From a candidate division LCP-89 bacterium B3_LCP (lineage in GTDB: Bacteria > Electryoneota > B3-LCP): a stretch of 64,000 nucleotides of DNA. The translations under genes were made by a program, and so were the position numbers. The notes below the pieces were generated by a model. It did not search any database, had not been told where the DNA came from, and was given only the letters and a program-made list of their open reading frames with translations. Of this stretch, positions 13,481 to 64,000 are shown piece by piece (position 1 is the stretch's first letter; each line of letters starts with the position of its first letter). The stretch lies in NCBI GenBank assembly GCA_005223185.1, contig NJBN01000001.1:373210-437209 (forward strand), read 5' to 3'.

Positions 13481-13855
13481 TTAATTCGTCAGATTGGTTT
13501 CGGTAGTATCGCGCCTGAAATATCCCACAAAGGGTGCAATAAGTGCGAAGATCAAAAGCATCCAGAAAGTGAGCTCTAATGCCTGTGAATAGTCTCTAAC
13601 TTTTTCCCCTAAGTATAGCATGTACTGAATATAATCTGGTGGTGGCATCGACGGCTTAAAATCTGTGGGGATTATTATTAATTCCCTCAAGGCCTCGTTT
13701 TGTGCAATCAAATGGTATAATGCTCCACATACCAGTATTAGTACACCTGAGGTTAACGCCATAATTAAGGACTTCAGCACCCTGCTCTTAAGTGAATAGA
13801 TCCCAATCAAGGATACAATAACTAGAAAAATAATGCCGATCTGGTAGATTATCAT
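13481..13855 (-). CDS. Small three-helix membrane protein of the radical SAM operon
   Basis: A 124-residue hydrophobic protein with no family I recognise. Predicted membrane helices lie at about residues 2-23, 30-52 and 92-113. A soluble loop of about 40 residues (IPTDFKPSMPPPDYIQYML...) sits between the second and third, and the hydrophilic tail is RRDTTETNLTN. Its ATG overlaps the stop of the candidate precursor-peptide gene as ATGA, so the two are translationally coupled. In peptide-maturation operons a small membrane protein in this position could serve export, immunity or anchoring of the modified peptide, but nothing in the sequence decides which. It is the last gene of the operon, and a repeat-rich convergent gap follows. 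Confidence 0.7.
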   Translation of the reverse strand: MIIYQIGIIFLVIVSLIGIYSLKSRVLKSLIMALTSGVLILVCGALYHLIAQNEALRELIIIPTDFKPSMPPPDYIQYMLYLGEKVRDYSQALELTFWMLLIFALIAPFVGYFRRDTTETNLTN

Positions 13856-14109
13856 TCTGCTCCACCATAAAAAGCATCAATATTTCTCCGTGTGCATTCA
13901 TCCATTTCACCAGTACCCGAGCCATATGGTAGTCCACCGGCAGCACTGACACCAAAAGACGGACGGCAAGCGCAGGCAATTTCTAGTAAGTGACCCGGAT
14001 TTGGTAAATCACCAAAGTTAATGATTTGTGTCAGATTGACAACCCGTAAATCCGGGACTACCGTTGGAAATACTTGGTGCAATTCCGGGAATTCTTGGTT
14101 GGTTTCCAT
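13852..14109 (-). CDS. Candidate precursor peptide of the radical SAM/SPASM system
   Basis: An 85-residue protein with no recognisable family. The ATG at 14109 has a strong ribosome site (AAAGGAG, seven bases before), which supports real translation even though the gene begins inside the 3' end of the radical SAM gene (92-base overlap). The N-terminal half (METNQEFPELHQVFPTVVPD...) is hydrophobic/acidic and leader-like. The C-terminal half has Cys46 and Cys48 (IACACRP), a Gly-rich run (VSAAGGLPYGSGTGEMD), Cys72, and the end NIDAFYGGAE. Small size, a leader plus a Cys/Gly-rich tail, and position directly behind a SPASM enzyme are the usual marks of a RiPP precursor. The family is unknown, and a role as a small partner protein cannot be excluded. 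Confidence 0.6.
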   Translation of the reverse strand: METNQEFPELHQVFPTVVPDLRVVNLTQIINFGDLPNPGHLLEIACACRPSFGVSAAGGLPYGSGTGEMDECTRRNIDAFYGGAE

Positions 14110-15493
14110 GGTTCCACTCCTTTACTAATTTGCCTTTTATAAAGTTAAATACAATGTCTGCTTTAGCTTTCATATGTTCGCAGTAAACCGTATCTTTTTG
14201 CAATCTCCCACGTTTCAGGAACATAGCAATACAGGGATTGCATAATCGGATCATGTAACAATTACTGCACAAAGTGTCCACTATCTCGTAATAGCTCTCA
14301 ATGATTTCTCTCGCTATATCAAAATCGTAACCGGAGTAAATGTCACCAATTACGAAGTCGTTAACACTCCGTCCACAGATTTTAAAATCGCCATTTGCTG
14401 TTACAAAAATTTCGGATAAACTTGGGAAACACATTCCTGGTAATAATATTTTCTCCTCAAGTTCACCCTGCTTAAAAACCAGCTTCTGCAACATATCCAT
14501 CATTCCCTGATCCAATTGGCTCACACCAACACTTTTTTCAAACCTTTTAGGAAATTTATTCATTAAGCACCAATAATTTTCATAGCACTTCATACGTTGG
14601 TCGCTATTCGAAGGTGCGAACGTATTCTCAATCTTCGTTAAATAACGGACATTAATGCCTTTGAACACTTCGGATTTTTCAAATGATTCATAATATTTAT
14701 CTAGAGGTTGACAAAGATCTATTACACATAAGACAGCAATGCAATTACGATAAAAATCAGGGAAACTAGACCTTAAATCTTTCATGTTCTTCTCAATACC
14801 CATGAACGTAGGCATTCCATCAACTGTTCTTCTGTGGGTATCATTAAGCTCTTCACTACCATCTATGCTGACGTATAGTTGCACGTTATGATCCTTTACA
14901 CGGCTCACAAATTCAATATCTAAAAGATATCCATTGGTATTTATAATGTAATAGAAATTTAAATCCTTATGTTCGGTTTGGCAGTAATCGAGAATGTTAT
15001 AGATTAATTCTTTTCTTAGCAGAGGTTCACCTCCGTACAAAGCGATGATGTATTGATCTAAATCCGGGAATTTATCGCAGAAGTAGTCTATAGAACGACT
15101 AGCAATATCGAAGGACATATCAAAGCGTGCTGGTTTTTCGTCGTAATAAAATCTCTGTTCACAGTACGTACATTTGAAATTGCAATGTTGTGTCAGTTCC
15201 AACCGTAAACATGTGTGTTTCTCCTTGTCGATATGCAACTTCCAATCTTGGGATAACCTCACATAAGCTTCCTGTGGTGAACAGAGAGTTACATTGTTAA
15301 AAAATGGTGTATCTCTGTATTTCTCTTTCAATATCTCAAATAAGTCTCTCTCCGAGAAATTCCCGTTATTACAATTTAGCCTCCCCATGCTGCTCAATAT
15401 AGATTTATCGGTTACGAAAAGGAATCTATTACTTGATGAATCATATACTAAAAGATAGTCTTTTGCATGATCCACCAGTTTAATAGGAGGCAT
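14018..15493 (-). CDS. Radical SAM/SPASM domain protein, putative peptide-modifying enzyme
   Basis: A 491-residue enzyme. An N-terminal region of about 100 residues may bind a leader peptide. The radical SAM core begins at LELTQHCNFKCTYCEQRF, with the CxxxCxxC cluster motif, then YGGEPLLRKELIYNIL (the GGEP motif) and YVSIDGSEELNDTHRR. The SPASM region has PGMCFPS, NGDFKICGR, then CSNCYMIRLCNPC and a last Cys in VYCEHMK, enough to bind auxiliary 4Fe-4S clusters. This layout is that of peptide maturases (anSME/PqqE/SCIFF-type families). A SAM-radical reaction on the peptide encoded next is the natural inference. The last 31 residues, rich in Pro, Gly, Ser and Asn, are read through the start of the precursor gene. 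The start is eight bases after the 169-residue protein's stop. Confidence 0.85.
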   Translation of the reverse strand: MPPIKLVDHAKDYLLVYDSSSNRFLFVTDKSILSSMGRLNCNNGNFSERDLFEILKEKYRDTPFFNNVTLCSPQEAYVRLSQDWKLHIDKEKHTCLRLELTQHCNFKCTYCEQRFYYDEKPARFDMSFDIASRSIDYFCDKFPDLDQYIIALYGGEPLLRKELIYNILDYCQTEHKDLNFYYIINTNGYLLDIEFVSRVKDHNVQLYVSIDGSEELNDTHRRTVDGMPTFMGIEKNMKDLRSSFPDFYRNCIAVLCVIDLCQPLDKYYESFEKSEVFKGINVRYLTKIENTFAPSNSDQRMKCYENYWCLMNKFPKRFEKSVGVSQLDQGMMDMLQKLVFKQGELEEKILLPGMCFPSLSEIFVTANGDFKICGRSVNDFVIGDIYSGYDFDIAREIIESYYEIVDTLCSNCYMIRLCNPCIAMFLKRGRLQKDTVYCEHMKAKADIVFNFIKGKLVKEWNHGNQPRIPGIAPSISNGSPGFTGCQSDTNH

Positions 15494-15501
15494 AATAAAT
15501 C

Positions 15502-16011
15502 CTATCGATCAGAATCAAATAGCAGGCCTATCGGTAACGCCGTAAACGGTCTCAATTCACTTTTTTCTGTAGTGAACTTGATTTGAAACTTGGAGCTTTT
15601 TGAACACACAACAAAATCGCCACCGTTAACAATATCGTTTGCGGAGACCGAAGTTGAAGAGCCATCTGAATAGGCAGTCGCCTTGGTGTGACCAAAGTTA
15701 GCATTCTTTACTGCGAGTTTTTTAACCGTACCAGTAACTGAAGTAACCTTAACTTCGCTATAACCTACAGGAATGTGTAATCCCTGTCCATCACTTCCCG
15801 AGTTGTCAGCTTCAAATTCAAATTCAACATAACTATCATTTGTAATAACGACCCAATTCAAATCAGAATTCGTGAAGCTTTCTTCATCATCTAAGGTAGA
15901 GCTGTTTGAGTCAAAATACATAGCGCTGGCGCCCATGACGAGTCTCACATTAGTGGATGTGATTTTTTTTGGTGAATCGTCGAAATCTTTTACTTTCACA
16001 GTGTAAGCCAT
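15502..16011 (-). CDS. Beta-rich 169-residue protein of unknown function, first gene of the radical SAM operon
   Basis: No family recognised. It has no signal peptide or membrane segment, is rich in Ser, Thr, Asp and Val, and alternates in short beta-strand-like stretches (WVVITNDSYVEFEFEADNSG, YSEVKVTSVTGTVKKLAVK, KFQIKFTTEKSE). There is a single Cys in FVVCSKSS. It looks like an all-beta jelly-roll or immunoglobulin-like fold, as in structural or virion-like proteins. The ATG is eight bases after AAAGGA. It leads the operon and lies eight bases from the radical SAM gene, so it may be the modified substrate, a scaffold or a partner. The choice is open. Confidence 0.75.
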   Translation of the reverse strand: MAYTVKVKDFDDSPKKITSTNVRLVMGASAMYFDSNSSTLDDEESFTNSDLNWVVITNDSYVEFEFEADNSGSDGQGLHIPVGYSEVKVTSVTGTVKKLAVKNANFGHTKATAYSDGSSTSVSANDIVNGGDFVVCSKSSKFQIKFTTEKSELRPFTALPIGLLFDSDR

Positions 16012-16380
16012 GGTACAATTCCTTTTGTTAAACCTTGGTTTTGATTTAGTAATTATAAATAATTAATGGCTGACTTTGCAGGAAAGAAATACAACGTAAA
16101 TAATTAGAAAAAGTCAACACTTTAACTCTTACAACCACCGAATCTCTCACTTAGTTTTTCAGGAAAAATGTCCAAACAAATTAAGCAACATACAATATAA
16201 AGTCTAAATTTCTTTAAAAGTCAAGCGTTTTTTATGCTAATTCTCGAAAGGCGTGTAGGGTGGACTAAAGAGCAGCGCAGTAGAGTAGGGTAGACTAAGT
16301 CCGTTCCTTGAGGGACGAGCGCAGTCTACCATTCCACCGGCACCCCACCTCTCTGGGGTGGGATAGGTTGCTGTTTTAAT
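16012..16380. other. Intergenic region, promoter side AT-rich, distal side with hairpin repeats
   Basis: The first 220 bases next to the operon are AT-rich and hold the possible promoter. From about 16250 the base composition changes to repeat DNA: 'gtagggtggactaa' and 'gtagggtagactaagtcc' blocks, then 'accccacctctctggggtgggat' (a hairpin). These lead straight into the 119-bp direct repeat at 16381. No gene is seen. Confidence 0.6.
16089..16117 (-). promoter_or_regulatory. Possible promoter of the radical SAM operon
   Basis: On the minus strand TTGACT (16112-16117) and TTGTAT (16089-16094) are spaced by 17 bases in an AT-rich gap, about 78 bases upstream of the ATG at 16011. The -35 is good and the -10 is weak. 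The pattern also vaguely resembles the TTTG/TAnnTTTG form used in Bacteroidetes. Confidence 0.35.
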
Positions 16381-16499
16381 CCCCCCGTCCGTCAGATGAC
16401 GGACTCCCCCCTTTGGGAAAGGGGGGGATAGTGGGAATGCAGGGAAGGATGCAGTTTCCCCCTTTGGAAAAAGGGGGACTAAGGGGGATTTGAAACCTT
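16381..16499 (+). repeat. Left 119-bp direct repeat flanking the DUF559 gene
   Basis: This copy is nearly identical, and in the same orientation, to 16890-17007. Internally it is a string of hairpins: GTCCGTCA/TGACGGAC, CCCCCTTT/AAAGGGGG and a second CCCCTTT/AAAAGGGG, and it ends in 'gggggatttgaaacctt'. It stops 11 bases before the ATG of the DUF559 gene. Confidence 0.85.
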
Positions 16500-16510
16500 C
16501 ATGATAAAGC

Positions 16511-16858
16511 ATGATCTATTATAATCCCAAATTGAAGCTTCTTGCCAGAGAGTTAAGAATTAATGCCACTGACGCAGAGAAACGGCTCTGGAACAGAATA
16601 CGACGCAAACAACTAAAAGATACCCAATTTTACCGTCAAAGAGTAATCGGAAATTACATTGTTGATTTTTATTGTCCTAAAGCGAAAATAATTATTGAAT
16701 TAGATGGTGAACAACATTTTACACCTCAGGGTAAGATCAAAGACCTTAAACGAGATTCATATCTGAATGAATTAGGATTTCAAGTGTTGCGATTCAGCAA
16801 CCTGGAGGTCATGAATAATATTGATGGGGTGCTGCAGGTGATTTGGAATCATCTGTAG
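16511..16858 (+). CDS. DUF559 domain protein, Vsr/PD-(D/E)XK-type endonuclease-like
   Basis: A 115-residue protein of the DUF559 family, whose fold is that of very-short-patch repair and other PD-(D/E)XK nucleases. Recognisable segments are LARELRINATDAEKRLWNRI, the catalytic-site region YRQRVIGNYIVDFYCPKAKIIIELDGEQH (Asp, then ExD with H), and LGFQVLRFSNLEVMNNIDGVL. It is complete and has no fused domain. It sits alone between two direct repeats with no ribosome site that I can see. In many genomes such genes are found inside similar repeats, which suggests the gene travels with the repeat. The substrate is unknown. Confidence 0.9.
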   Translation: MIYYNPKLKLLARELRINATDAEKRLWNRIRRKQLKDTQFYRQRVIGNYIVDFYCPKAKIIIELDGEQHFTPQGKIKDLKRDSYLNELGFQVLRFSNLEVMNNIDGVLQVIWNHL

Positions 16859-16889
16859 TCTCCCGTCAGAAATCCCCCCGTCCCGAAAT

Positions 16890-17007
16890 CCCCCCGCCCG
16901 TCTGACGACGGACTCCCTCCTTTGGGAAAGGGGGGGATAGTGGGAATGCAGGGAAGGATGCAGTTTCCCCCTTTGGAAAAGGGGGACCAAGGGGGATTTG
17001 AAACCTT
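16890..17007 (+). repeat. Right direct repeat flanking the DUF559 gene
   Basis: The second copy of the 16381-16499 element, in direct orientation, with only a few substitutions and one base shorter. It is preceded by a partial duplication, 'cccccgtcccgaaatccccccgcccgtc'. It starts 32 bases after the DUF559 stop codon. Confidence 0.85.
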
Positions 17008-20609: not shown

Positions 20610-21689
20610 TTAATTAAGTATCATAAGAACTAACCCCGTCAAGACGATATTCAGAACCGCTAACGGGAGAATGTTCACCCAGCAAAGGCGCATCAGTTGA
20701 TCGTAGCGAAAGCGGGGTAGCGTCCAGCGGATCAGAACCTGCAGCCAGCAGAAGAAGGCTATCTTAGCGAAGAAAGAGCCAATCTGTAGTATTACTACCA
20801 GCAAGTGAGGCAAATTCCATTCCCAGCCCCAGGGGAACTGGAACCCTTCAGCATACAACCAGGGTATCTGATAACCACCGAAGAACAGCGTGGCCATTAT
20901 GGCTGATAGCACGATGATTTCGATAAATTCCGCAAAGTAGAAAAGTCCGAAGCGCATGCCGGAATATTCGGTGTAATAACCTATTATCTCCGATTCGCCT
21001 TCGGGAAGATCGAAGGGAACGCGTTTGGTTTCGGCTATGGCAGAAGGCAAAAACAGCAGGAAACCCAGGGGCTGCAGGAAGATTCCCCACGCCGGCAGAA
21101 ACCCGAAGAGCAGTTCTCCCTGTTTTTTAACCATAATGTCTAATTGCAGTGTACCGAAGACCATTATCAGCCCTACCAGGGAGAGTCCCAGTACTACTTC
21201 GTAGGAGATCATCTGGGCACCTGCACGTAAGCCACCCAAAAGAGAGTACTTATTATTGGATGACCAGCCCGCCAGTACAGTGCCGTATATGGTCAAGCCC
21301 CCGAATGCCAGTATGAATAGGTAGCCGATGTTCAGATTGGCGATCTGCAGGGGGATTTCTAACGTACCTATGCGCAGAACGTCTCCGAAGGGGATGACAG
21401 CGAAGGTTAGCAATGCCGGAAAGAAGGCGATCATCGGCGCTAAAGTGTGCAGGAATTTATCCCCGCGGGCTGGCACGAAATCTTCCTTGAAGAACATCTT
21501 TAAGCCGTCAGCCATGGGCTGGAACAGACCGATGATGCGCAAGCCTAAGACGTCAGCGCGGTTGGCGCCCAGCCGGTCCTGCATTACCGCGGACTGCTTT
21601 CTTTCCACCCAGGTCATGATGGCGGCTAAGGATACGAGAGTCAGCAGGACTCCCCAGATTTTTGCTAAGATTATGGCGGTTTGGAGCAT
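20610..21689 (-). CDS. nuoH: NADH-quinone oxidoreductase subunit H
   Basis: A 359-residue membrane subunit that links the hydrophilic arm of complex I to the proton-pumping arm and lines the quinone chamber. Typical segments are WVERKQSAVMQDRLGANRADVLG, LFQPMADGLKMFFKEDFVP, YGTVLAGWSSNNKYSLLGGLRAGAQMISYEV and AETKRVPFDLPEGESEIIGYYTEYSGM, the conserved cytoplasmic loop with acidic residues. It has about eight or nine membrane helices. Its upstream neighbours are a DUF1848/methyltransferase pair instead of nuoG. Confidence 0.96.
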   Translation of the reverse strand: MLQTAIILAKIWGVLLTLVSLAAIMTWVERKQSAVMQDRLGANRADVLGLRIIGLFQPMADGLKMFFKEDFVPARGDKFLHTLAPMIAFFPALLTFAVIPFGDVLRIGTLEIPLQIANLNIGYLFILAFGGLTIYGTVLAGWSSNNKYSLLGGLRAGAQMISYEVVLGLSLVGLIMVFGTLQLDIMVKKQGELLFGFLPAWGIFLQPLGFLLFLPSAIAETKRVPFDLPEGESEIIGYYTEYSGMRFGLFYFAEFIEIIVLSAIMATLFFGGYQIPWLYAEGFQFPWGWEWNLPHLLVVILQIGSFFAKIAFFCWLQVLIRWTLPRFRYDQLMRLCWVNILPLAVLNIVLTGLVLMILN

Positions 21690-21694
21690 TTTGT

Positions 21695-22624
21695 CTATAT
21701 GTTTAGTTCAACTTGACTTTTTTTAGTTTCTTCGATCCAGCCAGTTATCGAAGGTGCTAAAGGATCATGTGACTTGTAATTTTTTTCTAGTACCTTCTGA
21801 CTCTTCAAAGCATAACAATAAGGACATTGATTCATACAGGTATCGTACCCTCCGATATCCACACTTATTGCACACTTACATTCTTCACGTTGACCGGGAT
21901 CTTTTTTTGTGGTGAATTCTTTTTCGAAGACAGAATAGAGATACATCCCGTCAATACATGCACCCGGCAAAATACCTGTACCTGAAAGCTCAATTAATTC
22001 AGCACAACTGAAGATATCTAATTTGTAAAATTCAGCTATATCGGCTAACTTCCTACTCAGTGATTTTACTTTCATTTTGATAGTCAAGGGATCAAACAAT
22101 GATTCTCCCTCGGGAATTTGTCTCTTTAACCTCTTAAGCACAAAACTATAAAGATCAACAAAGCTTATGATTACTCGCTTAGTATAGTCAGATAATTCAC
22201 TGCAAAGTCGTTTGAAAGTTTCGAAATGAAAATCCGAGTTTAGTGAACTTGTTAGTATTATTGGATCATAACGCCAAATTACTTTTTTCGGCCCTAACTT
22301 GTCTGAAAGGTGTCGAAAATCATTTATTCTATCATCAATATTGGGGATGTTGGGCTCTAGCCACTCTGGGTAATCATTGCATGTATATAGAAAGATATAA
22401 TCAAAATTCATATCATCGATTTTACTTAACTTGCCAAACATCGGTCTTGGATTCTTAGTCCAAAAAATAAACGCATCAATGACATCTGGGGAAAGATCTA
22501 CCTTTCTTACTTGCTTCTTGTTGTAGGGATTTTGCAAAAGACAAAATCCTTCTCTTATTCGATTGATAAACCAATCAGAATAAAAAGCAGGTATATCAGT
22601 GCGTCTACTTGCGCTTATTATCAT
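21695..22624 (-). CDS. DUF1848 family protein
   Basis: A 309-residue protein that begins with the family's signature, MIISASRRTDIPAFYSDWF, followed by NPYNKKQVRKVDLSPDVIDAFIFWTKNP and WRYDPIIL. A C-terminal cysteine cluster, ISVDIGGYDTCMNQCPYCYA, has the CxxxCxxC spacing of a radical SAM 4Fe-4S site, with two more Cys in REECKCAIS. The family resembles spore photoproduct lyase/radical SAM proteins in its cluster region, but its function is unknown. It lies eight bases after the Rsm22-like gene. The two share clearly AT-richer DNA than the surrounding nuo genes, a sign of acquisition as a pair. Confidence 0.88.
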   Translation of the reverse strand: MIISASRRTDIPAFYSDWFINRIREGFCLLQNPYNKKQVRKVDLSPDVIDAFIFWTKNPRPMFGKLSKIDDMNFDYIFLYTCNDYPEWLEPNIPNIDDRINDFRHLSDKLGPKKVIWRYDPIILTSSLNSDFHFETFKRLCSELSDYTKRVIISFVDLYSFVLKRLKRQIPEGESLFDPLTIKMKVKSLSRKLADIAEFYKLDIFSCAELIELSGTGILPGACIDGMYLYSVFEKEFTTKKDPGQREECKCAISVDIGGYDTCMNQCPYCYALKSQKVLEKNYKSHDPLAPSITGWIEETKKSQVELNI

Positions 22625-22632
22625 AATCCAGC

Positions 22633-23742
22633 TTACACCTTGATTATTTCAACTTTCTCAAAATCGCGTGTTACGCCACACAGAGCTCCTCTGTTTATCG
22701 AGGTATTTTTCAACTTCATGCCTCTTCTATTAATTCCACAGAACTCTATATCCTTCTTTCCTCTTGAATATGGTGCACCTACCGTCCAGATCCTCTCAGG
22801 ATCTGATTTCATTAATTCATCAAATATAGTATGACCGGATTTATTTATTATGATGTTTGAAGTGTTGAATGGACCATTGTATGCCCTTATTATCCCTCCA
22901 TTTTTTCTGAAGTGCTTAGTCTTAATTTCATACTCATTCCACATCCAGCATTCTTTTTTTCTACATCTATAATCTGGTTTACACGGATAAAAAACATTTA
23001 AATCATGTGCTCTAGCAGCGGCAGAAGCGTTTACTATTACTTCTCTCCCCCTATTGATCGCGGGCTCGTATATAATTAGGCTGCCATTTTCACTAAGGCT
23101 ATCAATTGATGTGACTATCAAAAAATTGTAGTATTCAGGATCAAGTTCGTTGAATAAATTGGCTGAAAATATTAGATCCCATGAAAGTGAATATAGAATT
23201 TCTAAGATCTCTTTTTCCTCTTTAATATCTATCAACGCTTGCTGCCAATTGTGACTTGTTCTATTTTCTAAGAACTTACTTGCATTTATTAACTTGCCTT
23301 GCCTATTGAGTGCCTGCTCATTATGATCAACAGCAGTTAAGTTTATCGAAAAATCACTAAATTCAGGATTTTCAAACAAATCAAATAGCCCAATTGGAAT
23401 AGCTCCCGTACCTGTTCCTAGATCCAATACGTTCAGCGTGCTTGGAAAGTCAACAGCATCTTTGTTCCGTGAGAGTTTGCTTAAAGAAATTTTAGGGATA
23501 AATGAATTTCTTGGTAGATACCAGGTTGTGTAAGCATCTATTTTAGAGTTTGATGAGTAGTCGATTTCAGGTGGTCTGTTGTAATCGTTGTGATAAGATT
23601 CTCTAAATGTGTTTTGTTCATGTGTAATGTCGTCCGAATGCGATTCAAGACATCCAGATATAATTTGGTGGATCCTATTTGGTAGGACCAAATTTCCTCT
23701 ACTAAAAACTAAGTTATTAATCCTTTCAAATTCTGGAAACAT
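22633..23742 (-). CDS. Rsm22-like SAM-dependent methyltransferase
   Basis: A 369-residue protein. The SAM site is LNVLDLGTGTGAIPIGLFDLF with an acidic partner in LTAVDHNEQAL. Motif IV-like WDLIFSANLFNELDPEYYNF and LSENGSLIIYEPAINRGREVI follow. The NELxPE...EP arrangement and the Cys-rich segment FYPCKPDYRCRKKECWMW, plus CGVTRD near the end, resemble the ribosomal small-subunit Rsm22 family, which has conserved Fe-S-type cysteines. It forms an AT-rich pair with the DUF1848 gene. The substrate is not certain; a small-molecule or other RNA target remains possible. Confidence 0.6.
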   Translation of the reverse strand: MFPEFERINNLVFSRGNLVLPNRIHQIISGCLESHSDDITHEQNTFRESYHNDYNRPPEIDYSSNSKIDAYTTWYLPRNSFIPKISLSKLSRNKDAVDFPSTLNVLDLGTGTGAIPIGLFDLFENPEFSDFSINLTAVDHNEQALNRQGKLINASKFLENRTSHNWQQALIDIKEEKEILEILYSLSWDLIFSANLFNELDPEYYNFLIVTSIDSLSENGSLIIYEPAINRGREVIVNASAAARAHDLNVFYPCKPDYRCRKKECWMWNEYEIKTKHFRKNGGIIRAYNGPFNTSNIIINKSGHTIFDELMKSDPERIWTVGAPYSRGKKDIEFCGINRRGMKLKNTSINRGALCGVTRDFEKVEIIKV

Positions 23743-25231: not shown

Positions 25232-26845
25232 TCACCAACTGTCCAGATACAATCCCTTATTTACACCGAAGGTTGCGAGCCAGTTGAGGGTGTCATATTC
25301 CGGTTTATCTTCTGCTAGAGATTTAAAGACAGTATGAGTCTCTTCAAATGACCACTTGGCGTTTAGTCTCTTGCCCAAACGCTGCAAGACTTCCCAGAGT
25401 GGCAGGGATTGCCCTGTTGGCTCGACAGCTTTTTCGAACTTCTGCACCAGTCCCTTGACGTTGGTGAAGGTTCCTTCCCGTTCTGCAGGGAGAGCCAGCG
25501 GCAAAGCTACGGAAGCCTTATCCATTAGTGAACTCTTGTGCGTATCTAAAACGATGAGCCAGTCGAGTTTGGCGATAAGATTATCTATCTGGTTTCCCAG
25601 CATGCCTTCAAGATTAGTACCACAGACCACCAGCCCTTTAATCTGTCCGGCGAAGATCGCTTCTATTATTTCAGCCGCTTCAGAGGTGTTGCTGATGGAA
25701 CCAAAACCCAGATCTTTAAATCCCCTGCGGTTGGGATAAGGATCGTCCGTTAACAGGATGTTATCTGCAGCCAGTTTCTCCATTGATGGTATATCGTAAC
25801 CTAAATTAGCGAATTTAACCGTATCGCGGAAGAGTCGCAATGCAAGATATACGTCCTCATTGGTTGCGTTAGGCGCCATCAGCAGAGCTAAGCCGTCCGG
25901 GCCCGGTTTTTTCAAGCTGGATCGAATTAGAGTTTCCGACTTAGTCAGCGCCTGTTCCCATCCGGTTTCGCCACCAGCAATAAGCGGCGTCAGGGCTCGA
26001 TTCGGGTTATCGATGGAGCTGTATCCGTACCTCCCTCGGTCGCAGATCCACCAGCGGTTGACGTCCACATTGTATCGCGGTTTCAGGCGCATGATGCGCT
26101 TGCCCGCACTCTTATAGTCGTGATCGGTGTCGAAGTGGATGTATGTATTACAGCCCCGGCTGCACGATGGACATATCGATTTCACCGATTTCAAATACCA
26201 GGATCTGCGCTGAAAATGGAAATCCCTGTCCAGTAGAGCGCCCACAGGGCAGAGATCCACGACGTTGCCACTGTAAGGATTATCCAGATCCTTGCCGGGG
26301 TAGTTCATCAACACTTCATCGGAACCGTGCCCGAAGATACCAAGCTGTTTTTCACCCCATATCTCATCACAGAAACGCACGCAACGGCCGCAGAGCACAC
26401 ACCTTTCTGCATCCAACATCACATTCGGTCCTGCCCGATGAACCTTCGGCTTGTGCCATTTGTCCACGTTCAACCGGTTGTCGTACAGCCCGTGCAGCAT
26501 GTAATAGTCCTGCAGTTTGCATTCACCGGCATCGTCGCATATAGGACAATCGGTCGGATGGTTCAACAGCAGGAATTCCAGCACCGCTTTGACGATTCCC
26601 TTCACTTCCGGGGAATCGGTCTTAACTGTCATCCCATCCTGAGCGGGATTGGTGCAGGCTAAGTCTATTCGTTTTCTGCCGTTCTGTTCAATTTCCACCT
26701 GGCACATTCTGCAGGAACCAGCCACACTCAAACCCGGATGATAGCAGAAATGCGGGATATCTATCCCTAATTTGCGCGCCGCCAGGATCAGATTAGTGCC
26801 CTCGGGGACTTCGATTTGTTGGTCGTTTATGATGATTTCTGGCAT
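25232..26845 (-). CDS. nuoG: NADH-quinone oxidoreductase subunit G, short form
   Basis: A 537-residue subunit of the electron-input arm. The 2Fe-2S domain is IPHFCYHPGLSVAGSCRMCQVE, the N5 site is HPTDCPICDDAGECKLQDYYM, and a further cluster is CVLCGRCVRFCDE with VVDLCPVGAL. The N7-like motif is CPSCSRGCNTYIHFD. The molybdopterin-oxidoreductase-like region that follows (about residues 220-520) is shorter than the several-hundred-residue domain of long NuoG proteins. The catalytic arm is still complete for electron transfer. It lies 57 bases after nuoF, and the following genes up to nuoH are not complex I subunits. Confidence 0.93.
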   Translation of the reverse strand: MPEIIINDQQIEVPEGTNLILAARKLGIDIPHFCYHPGLSVAGSCRMCQVEIEQNGRKRIDLACTNPAQDGMTVKTDSPEVKGIVKAVLEFLLLNHPTDCPICDDAGECKLQDYYMLHGLYDNRLNVDKWHKPKVHRAGPNVMLDAERCVLCGRCVRFCDEIWGEKQLGIFGHGSDEVLMNYPGKDLDNPYSGNVVDLCPVGALLDRDFHFQRRSWYLKSVKSICPSCSRGCNTYIHFDTDHDYKSAGKRIMRLKPRYNVDVNRWWICDRGRYGYSSIDNPNRALTPLIAGGETGWEQALTKSETLIRSSLKKPGPDGLALLMAPNATNEDVYLALRLFRDTVKFANLGYDIPSMEKLAADNILLTDDPYPNRRGFKDLGFGSISNTSEAAEIIEAIFAGQIKGLVVCGTNLEGMLGNQIDNLIAKLDWLIVLDTHKSSLMDKASVALPLALPAEREGTFTNVKGLVQKFEKAVEPTGQSLPLWEVLQRLGKRLNAKWSFEETHTVFKSLAEDKPEYDTLNWLATFGVNKGLYLDSW

Positions 26846-61991: not shown

Positions 61992-64000
61992 ATGAGATAC
62001 TTATCACTACTATTCACCGCCCTTTTTCTGTTTGTCGCATTAATGAGTACTATCACATCTGCACAACCTCCAGAATTGCTATGGAATTACATTTATGGTG
62101 GATCCGGTGATGACCGGAGTTATTGTGTTCAACAAACTACAGATGGTGGTTTCATTTTGACTGGTCTCACCGACATGGGTCCTTTCGGCTTAATTGACGC
62201 TTATCTACTGAAAACCGACGAAAATGGCGATTCACTCTGGATGCAGTTCTATGGAAATTCAGACTGGGATGAAAGCAACTGGGTAGAAGAGACATCAGGT
62301 GGTGGATTTATTCTTGCGGGTAGCGTTCAGGGTTCAGGGTCATATTTTGATCTTTGGATAATCAGAACTGATTCGAACGGTGATACACTCTGGACGAGAA
62401 CGTTCGGAGAATCAAGTTATGAAGATAGAGGCATATGTGTGAAAGAAACTACGGACGGTGGATTCATTATCGTTGGGAGCACAGCTTCTTATAGTTATGG
62501 TAGTGATGATATTTATTTAGTAAAATTGGATTCAGATGGTGATTCTTTATGGACACGCCACTACGGTGGTGAGAATTGGGATCAAGGTTTGAGTGTTGTA
62601 GAAGCTCCGGATGGTGGATATGTAATAACCGGTGCAACTATGTCTTTCGGTGCTGGGGAAGAGGATATCTTTCTGCTAAAGACGGACGCAAACGGTGATT
62701 CCTCGTGGATGAATACTTATGGTGGTACTGATGAGGAAGTCGGTTATGCAGTGATTTTAGCCAATGATGGTGACGGTTTTGTAATAACGGGCTGCTATGA
62801 ATCCGGAGGCTCAGGAGGTGAAGATGGGTTTTTAATGGAAACCGATCTGAATGGTGATTCACACTGGATGATTCAGTCGGGGGGCGAATCCGACGACAGA
62901 TTTACTGAAGTGACTCCCACATCTGATAATGGGTATCTTTTAAGTGGATTCTACCATTCGACAGGAAGTGCTGGTGAAGGTGATTTCTGGCTGACAAAAA
63001 TCGATTCTGAAGGAAATCTAATCTGGGAAACAGTTTGGGGTGATGTTGAGGCTGATCGGCTTTTTGCTGCGTATGAACTATCGCAAGGAGGATTTATTGT
63101 CTGCGGTCACACGCGATCGTATGGTGCCGCCTATAGAGATATATATTTAGCTCGATTTCTACCCGTTCCTCAACCTGAAATTATGCTTTCCGACAGTACC
63201 CTAGACTACGGAACTGTTAACGTGGGAAGTCAGGTTGAGCTACCCCTAACGATCTACAGCCAGGGCGACACGACGCTTATCCTATATGATATATTCAGCA
63301 GTGATTCATCCGTCTTCTTCACTGATTTCGATCCAGCTGATAGTTTAATAAATCCCGGGGACAGTTTAGTAGTCATGGTAACTTTTACACCACAGGAAGC
63401 CATATCCTACCAGGAGCTATTAACGGTGGATAATAACGCCTCATTGGAGGAGGTGCTCCTCACCGGCACCGGATATGTACCTCAACCCGGTATTTCGATT
63501 TCCGACAGCACATTGGATTACGGGACTGTCACCGCAGGAAGTCAGGTTGAGCTACCCCTAACGATCTACAGCCAGGGCGACACGACGCTTATCCTATATG
63601 ATATATTCAGCAGTGATTCATCCGTGTTCTACACTGATTTCAATCCTGCTGATAGTCTGCTTGCTCCCGGGGATAGTTTGACAATAATAGTAACTTTTGC
63701 ACCACTGGAAGCCATATCCTACCAAGAGCTAATAACGGTGGATAATAACGCCTCATTGGAGGAGGTGCTCCTCACCGGCACCGGATATGTACCTCAGGCA
63801 GGCATCTCGGTTTCCCAAAATGAACTTAACTTCGGCGCTGTAACTGGCGGCACTCAATCCGATCTACCCCTGACTATCTACAGTACAGGCGATACTACGC
63901 TTATCATAAACAACATATTCAGCGGTGATACCACTATTTTCTTCACAGACTTTGATCCTGCTGATAGCTTGCTTGTGCCCGGAGACAGCATAGTGGTCAC
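61992..64000 (+). CDS. Large secreted repeat protein, 3' end beyond the window
   Basis: The frame opens at ATG 61992 with a signal peptide (MRYLSLLFTALFLFVALMS...AQPP) and is still open at the last base. At least 669 residues are visible. Residues 25-385 are repeats of about 60 residues with the pattern YGGSGDD..., TTDGGFILTG, LLKTDENGDSLW, a beta-propeller-like secreted module common in FCB bacteria. From about residue 390 (PQPEIMLSDSTLDYGTVNVG) come choice-of-anchor D/ASH-type Ig domains of 104 residues (LPLTIYSQGDTTLILYDIF ... NNASLEEVLLTGTGYVP). A C-terminal sorting domain is expected after the window edge but cannot be seen. Confidence 0.85.
   Translation, partial: MRYLSLLFTALFLFVALMSTITSAQPPELLWNYIYGGSGDDRSYCVQQTTDGGFILTGLTDMGPFGLIDAYLLKTDENGDSLWMQFYGNSDWDESNWVEETSGGGFILAGSVQGSGSYFDLWIIRTDSNGDTLWTRTFGESSYEDRGICVKETTDGGFIIVGSTASYSYGSDDIYLVKLDSDGDSLWTRHYGGENWDQGLSVVEAPDGGYVITGATMSFGAGEEDIFLLKTDANGDSSWMNTYGGTDEEVGYAVILANDGDGFVITGCYESGGSGGEDGFLMETDLNGDSHWMIQSGGESDDRFTEVTPTSDNGYLLSGFYHSTGSAGEGDFWLTKIDSEGNLIWETVWGDVEADRLFAAYELSQGGFIVCGHTRSYGAAYRDIYLARFLPVPQPEIMLSDSTLDYGTVNVGSQVELPLTIYSQGDTTLILYDIFSSDSSVFFTDFDPADSLINPGDSLVVMVTFTPQEAISYQELLTVDNNASLEEVLLTGTGYVPQPGISISDSTLDYGTVTAGSQVELPLTIYSQGDTTLILYDIFSSDSSVFYTDFNPADSLLAPGDSLTIIVTFAPLEAISYQELITVDNNASLEEVLLTGTGYVPQAGISVSQNELNFGAVTGGTQSDLPLTIYSTGDTTLIINNIFSGDTTIFFTDFDPADSLLVPGDSIVV
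63225..63796 (+). repeat. In-gene tandem repeat of 312 bp (104 codons)
   Basis: Two consecutive Ig-domain units are almost identical at the DNA level. An 89-bp block is identical at 63225-63313 and 63537-63625, and the block 'gtggataataacgcctcatt...' is identical around 63427-63484 and 63739-63796. A third, more diverged unit begins at about 63797. The offset is exactly 312 bp, so the frame is kept. Confidence 0.9.

Follow-up and report, generated by a model that had tools for sequence, protein, structure and literature searches.

Studies of radical SAM peptide maturation have usually approached it as a route to secreted antimicrobial peptides. SacP23 of Paenibacillus polymyxa has been reported with a maturase of the CcpM family (TIGR04068) and a CLI_3235-type precursor (PMC10731318). 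Cys thioether chemistry has been described for the PapB-type ranthipeptide maturases (NF047865; PMC9413430), and the annotated cluster of the lachnocin maturase (NF038170) includes an ABC transporter and an S8 protease. For quinohemoprotein amine dehydrogenase (PeaB/QhpC), the annotated peaA-peaB-qhpC region consists of a structural gene, a SPASM enzyme gene and an overlapping small gene.

The locus considered here lies within a stretch of 64,000 nucleotides of contig NJBN01000001.1 from candidate division LCP-89 bacterium B3_LCP (hereinafter referred to as the window). It resembles CcpM clusters in having a small peptide with closely spaced Cys residues beside a maturase whose best curated family is CcpM. 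Unlike those clusters, it has no ABC transporter, TIGR04066/04069 partner or protease, and contains a beta-rich protein instead. The ABC transporter and S8 protease of the lachnocin cluster are likewise missing. Gene order is similar to that of PeaB/QhpC, but the window cluster has no haem or dehydrogenase subunit. The features of the cluster were as follows.

15502..16011, minus strand: beta-rich protein, 169 aa (homologues in the phylum genomes G019 and G038)
14018..15493, minus strand: radical SAM/SPASM enzyme, 491 aa (Pfam Radical_SAM, TIGR04068, Cys positions, tree)
14117..14123, minus strand: AAAGGAG ribosome-binding site of the peptide gene (read from the sequence)
13852..14109, minus strand: candidate precursor peptide, 85 aa (coding bias, ribosome site, ATGA coupling)
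13481..13855, minus strand: membrane protein, 124 aa (hydropathy, three hydrophobic segments)

Layout and the radical SAM/SPASM enzyme

The first-pass annotation had described four tightly packed minus-strand genes, and their places and sizes were all as given there. The 8-base gap between the beta-rich and enzyme genes, the ATGA overlap coupling the peptide and membrane genes, and the strong ribosome site (AAAGGAG, 7 nt upstream of the peptide ATG) were also seen in the sequence. The overlap noted between the enzyme and peptide genes was present, but its size had been understated, as the two reading frames share 92 nt. Inside this overlap, codon bias favoured the peptide frame (0.09 vs. -0.15 for the enzyme frame), which suggests that the final ~30 residues of the enzyme are probably run-on into the peptide gene. 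Codon bias, trained on long ORFs from the rest of the window, preferred the annotated frame in all four genes. The cluster had been called AT-richer than its neighbours; this held for the genes of the beta-rich protein (40% GC), the enzyme (36%) and the membrane protein (40%), but not for the peptide gene, which at 46% equals the window mean. Promoter and terminator scans gave counts not above those of shuffled sequences, and an Rfam search returned no match. The three membrane segments proposed earlier were recovered as three hydrophobic stretches by hydropathy; the 124-aa protein had no homologue and no family in the libraries. Immediately upstream of the cluster, a DUF559 endonuclease-like ORF (16511-16858) is flanked by a pair of 109-nt direct repeats with 92% identity (16378-16995).

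The enzyme contains the radical SAM core motif CxxxCxxC (C104, C108, C111; Pfam Radical_SAM, 6e-15) and a seven-Cys SPASM pattern, tested as C-x(9-15)-G-x4-C ... CxxCx5CxxC ... C, at Cys 355, 373, 409, 412, 418, 421 and 438, in accordance with its first identification as a radical SAM/SPASM protein. The Pfam SPASM model scored 13.1 bits, below its cut-off of 21.5. In a profile alignment, the solved SCIFF maturase 5wgg was matched over 2-446, N-terminal domain included. This match, which begins at residue 2, bears on a possible leader-binding (RRE-like) domain. The best curated family was CcpM TIGR04068 (7.4e-55, 187 bits), and the nearest families (CcpM, GG-samocin, PapB, RumMC and lachnocin maturases) all scored far under their cut-offs, PapB NF047865 ranking third with 121 bits against 340. 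PeaB was also among the matches. The enzymes of G019 and G038 that are encoded beside beta-rich genes likewise matched CcpM best, followed by PapB and RumMC; their CcpM scores of 193 and 241 bits place the three beta-linked enzymes at 187-241 bits vs. a cut-off of 500.

A 24-enzyme tree grouped the three beta-linked enzymes and a related enzyme of G029 with CcpM and the lachnocin maturases (80/88) and set PeaB and the SCIFF group apart from them. Support for this clade is modest and its branches are long, so that the placement, weakly supported, reads as neighbourhood and not as membership. The test neither established nor excluded a single origin of the three beta-linked enzymes (AU p 0.257). 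With the enzyme placed in the broad CcpM/lachnocin group, the modification chemistry, earlier thought new, is not clearly so; it probably belongs to an established type, in which a Cys-containing peptide is cross-linked by thioether bonds.

Of the 39 phylum genomes, five encode a CcpM-like enzyme at E <= 1e-30 (that of the window, G014, G019, G029 and G038), and no close relatives of the enzyme were found in five genomes of the same family. Genome-wide pattern scans with the enzyme or the peptide, and viral scans with the enzyme and the beta-rich protein, returned no relatives, the method reaching close relatives only. A further weak match within the window's genome proved to be an unrelated radical SAM protein, and PADLOC viperin matches were attributed to generic radical SAM similarity.

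Recurrence of the cluster and the beta-rich family

The operon recurs in G019 and G038, two genomes of this phylum that fall outside the family of the window's genome and belong to other families. In each of them, one or two beta-rich genes (~170 aa) sit just upstream of the enzyme gene, and a Cys-containing ORF of 85-91 aa is present. In G038, two beta-rich copies precede one enzyme and a 91-aa Cys-rich ORF follows it, with no membrane gene; the coding bias of this ORF was ambiguous (-0.18 vs. -0.10). In G019, the 85-aa ORF, which has no CxC, lies before and not after the enzyme, which is followed by a 106-aa membrane protein not similar to that of the window. In G029, no beta-rich gene was found in the stretch preceding the related enzyme, where the contig begins. 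Only three beta-linked enzyme loci are known.

Aligned over 156 residues, the beta-rich protein of the window was 38% identical to its G019 counterpart (E 1e-31); its identity to a G038 copy was 25% (E 8e-19). Pairwise identities of the beta-linked enzymes were 17-24%; in a direct comparison with one relative, the beta-rich proteins were 38% and the enzymes about 20% identical. Judged by these alignments, what is conserved in the arrangement is the beta-rich protein, more so than the enzyme; the small peptide had earlier been proposed as the defining partner.

A profile search detected the beta-rich family in 8 of 39 phylum genomes and in none of ~347 outside, an absence that is provisional since the search was loose in a first look. 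No family match was obtained in Pfam, NCBIfam or PHROG, nothing was found among phages and plasmids, and the family profile had no significant match among solved structures. The companions had not been recognised as known RiPP components, and the family libraries agreed. The 169-aa protein may provisionally be regarded as the founding member of a previously unnamed family, restricted to the phylum in the genomes searched. A single-sequence fold of the protein was all-beta, with a pLDDT of 48.5 too poor for use, and a fold search with this model (no match at E <= 0.001) was disregarded.

In five of the eight genomes (G022, G025, G027, G031 and G033), no radical SAM gene lies beside the beta-rich gene. 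The G027 copy contains a TAA in frame close to its start and lies near a contig end, so that loss of an enzyme partner is possible. The beta-rich tree joined the window protein to the G019 protein and the orphan of G027 (99/99) and rejected a single clade of all enzyme-linked copies (AU p 0.004), which indicates that the linkage between beta-rich protein and enzyme was gained or lost more than once. Co-occurrence of the two across the 39 genomes was marginal (Fisher p 0.049). Cys residues are few in the family and are not conserved. Three orphan proteins (L020 7376-7948, L021 6430-7062 and L028 7845-8477) have a common C-terminal PGLEEGxNExNxF, which is missing from the enzyme-linked copies. 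At L019 6313-7444, a tandem pair of diverged beta-rich genes with no adjacent enzyme is followed by a 120-aa ORF that opens with CxxC.

Low GC of the enzyme gene in all three genomes (window, G019 and G038) and the absence of the cluster from five same-family genomes suggest horizontal transfer. To this extent the transfer proposed by the first-pass annotation found some support, but no empty site was found: the same-family genomes have the dTDP-sugar dehydratase and sugar transferase genes in common, what lies downstream differs from genome to genome, and in no case did it match the other flank of the window.

Candidate precursor peptide

As is general for RiPP loci, a short gene adjoins the modifying enzyme, here the 85-aa ORF with coding bias and a ribosome site. 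It encodes Cys46-Ala-Cys48, a Gly-rich stretch and Cys72, the Cys positions being those reported earlier. The CAC motif is weak evidence alone, as CxC arose in 7% of shuffles given the Cys count (p 0.07); for CACTC in the G038 ORF, CxCxC arose in 0.8% (p 0.008). These motifs were noticed only after inspection and are thus suggestive only. In addition, CcpM-like enzymes of other phyla are neighboured by unannotated Cys-rich peptide ORFs with a CxC(xC) core, which the CAC of the window peptide resembles: ACPCYACTC (L033), CRCACSC (L034), CQCSC (L054) and CNCPC (L043). The L033 ORF matched the CLI_3235 precursor family above cut-off and the L054 ORF matched CA_C0660 below cut-off.

Unlike known CcpM precursors, the window peptide had no match to any precursor family in NCBIfam. 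On conservation of its frame, which the first-pass annotation had put forward as a test, the answer was only partial: all three loci of the phylum have a Cys-containing ORF of 85-91 aa, yet these sequences could not be aligned to one another. Lack of alignment between RiPP precursors is common. No Asp or Glu occurs within six residues after Cys46 or Cys48, so the PapB motif Cys-X(0-6)-Asp/Glu is missing there and a PapB-type Cys-Asp/Glu link from these residues is unlikely.

Proposed function and alternatives

We consider it reasonably probable that the cluster is a RiPP-type maturation system, in which the enzyme introduces thioether bridges into the 85-aa peptide, the beta-rich protein is its carrier or partner, and the membrane protein serves location or self-protection. 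The gene arrangement, the enzyme class and the recurrence with the beta-rich protein are observed. We infer that the small ORF is the substrate, and likewise the type of bond and what the beta-rich and membrane proteins do. The enzyme would bind the peptide, probably through its N-terminal domain; its core cluster would cleave SAM, a hydrogen would be taken from the peptide, and a Cys sulfur would be joined at that position, a Cys-thioether mechanism reported for related maturases (PMC9413430, PMC8172795). One or more bridges may run from Cys46 and/or Cys48, perhaps also Cys72, to nearby residues in the Gly-rich C-terminal half. The beta-rich protein would then associate with the finished peptide, most likely in the role of soluble carrier or assembly subunit, with location or self-protection possibly left to the small membrane protein. 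Related clusters contain ABC transporters; none is adjacent in the window or in G038, and the transporter-like genes of G019 are on the opposite strand about 1.4 kb off. No exporter or protease gene adjoins the window cluster. Because a transporter is not adjacent here, unlike in related clusters, the partner or carrier role is favoured.

The beta-rich protein might itself be the substrate, modified at a non-Cys residue, with the small ORFs being unrelated regulators, immunity proteins or chance frames. It is the sole companion conserved at all three loci, more so than the enzyme, two copies precede one enzyme in G038, and the small ORFs do not align. We nevertheless regard this as unlikely, since the beta-rich gene lacks an adjacent enzyme in five genomes, including G027, whose copy is a close relative of that in the window (99/99), and with its few Cys residues not conserved, the kind of Cys chemistry that relatives of the enzyme perform would have no bearing on it.

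We are slightly more doubtful of maturation of an enzyme subunit, as in quinohemoprotein amine dehydrogenase, where the peptide would be cross-linked in the cell and remain, unsecreted, as a permanent subunit with the beta-rich protein. The like order of the peaA-peaB-qhpC region, the PeaB match of the enzyme and the lack of a nearby exporter or protease, where relatives have ABC transporters, would fit. Against this, PeaB falls outside the CcpM/lachnocin group in the tree, the beta-rich protein has no haem or catalytic domain, and the small ORFs vary completely among loci, unlike a structural subunit. Finally, an unrelated passenger brought into this neighbourhood by AT-rich insertion hot spots, for which the five solitary occurrences and the marginal co-occurrence across 39 genomes might speak, is highly improbable, since all beta-linked enzymes, in three genomes each from a different family, are encoded immediately downstream of a same-strand beta-rich gene, and threefold chance adjacency among thousands of genes is very unlikely.

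Overall, the locus is best described as a divergent RiPP-type cluster with a phylum-specific companion, whose function, like the product, we infer. On this maturation reading, a conserved soluble-looking partner where an exporter and a protease would be expected would point to a further use for this type of chemistry, and the beta-rich protein would serve as a specific marker in searches for similar clusters across an uncultured phylum. Should the partner prove unrelated, the locus is just another divergent peptide cluster. A bolder extension, which we think improbable, is that the beta-rich family has repeatedly joined divergent thioether-forming radical SAM enzymes, carrying or displaying variable cross-linked peptides in non-secreted complexes; such use of RiPP chemistry, if true, has not been described before.

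Elsewhere in the window, a DUF1848 gene and an Rsm22-like methyltransferase gene (21695-23742, 35-38% GC) appear as if inserted into a complex I-like operon, flanked by genes resembling complex I subunits by eye (20610-21689 and 25232-26845). Further, a 300-nt sequence is repeated in tandem at 63165-63776 with 87% identity.
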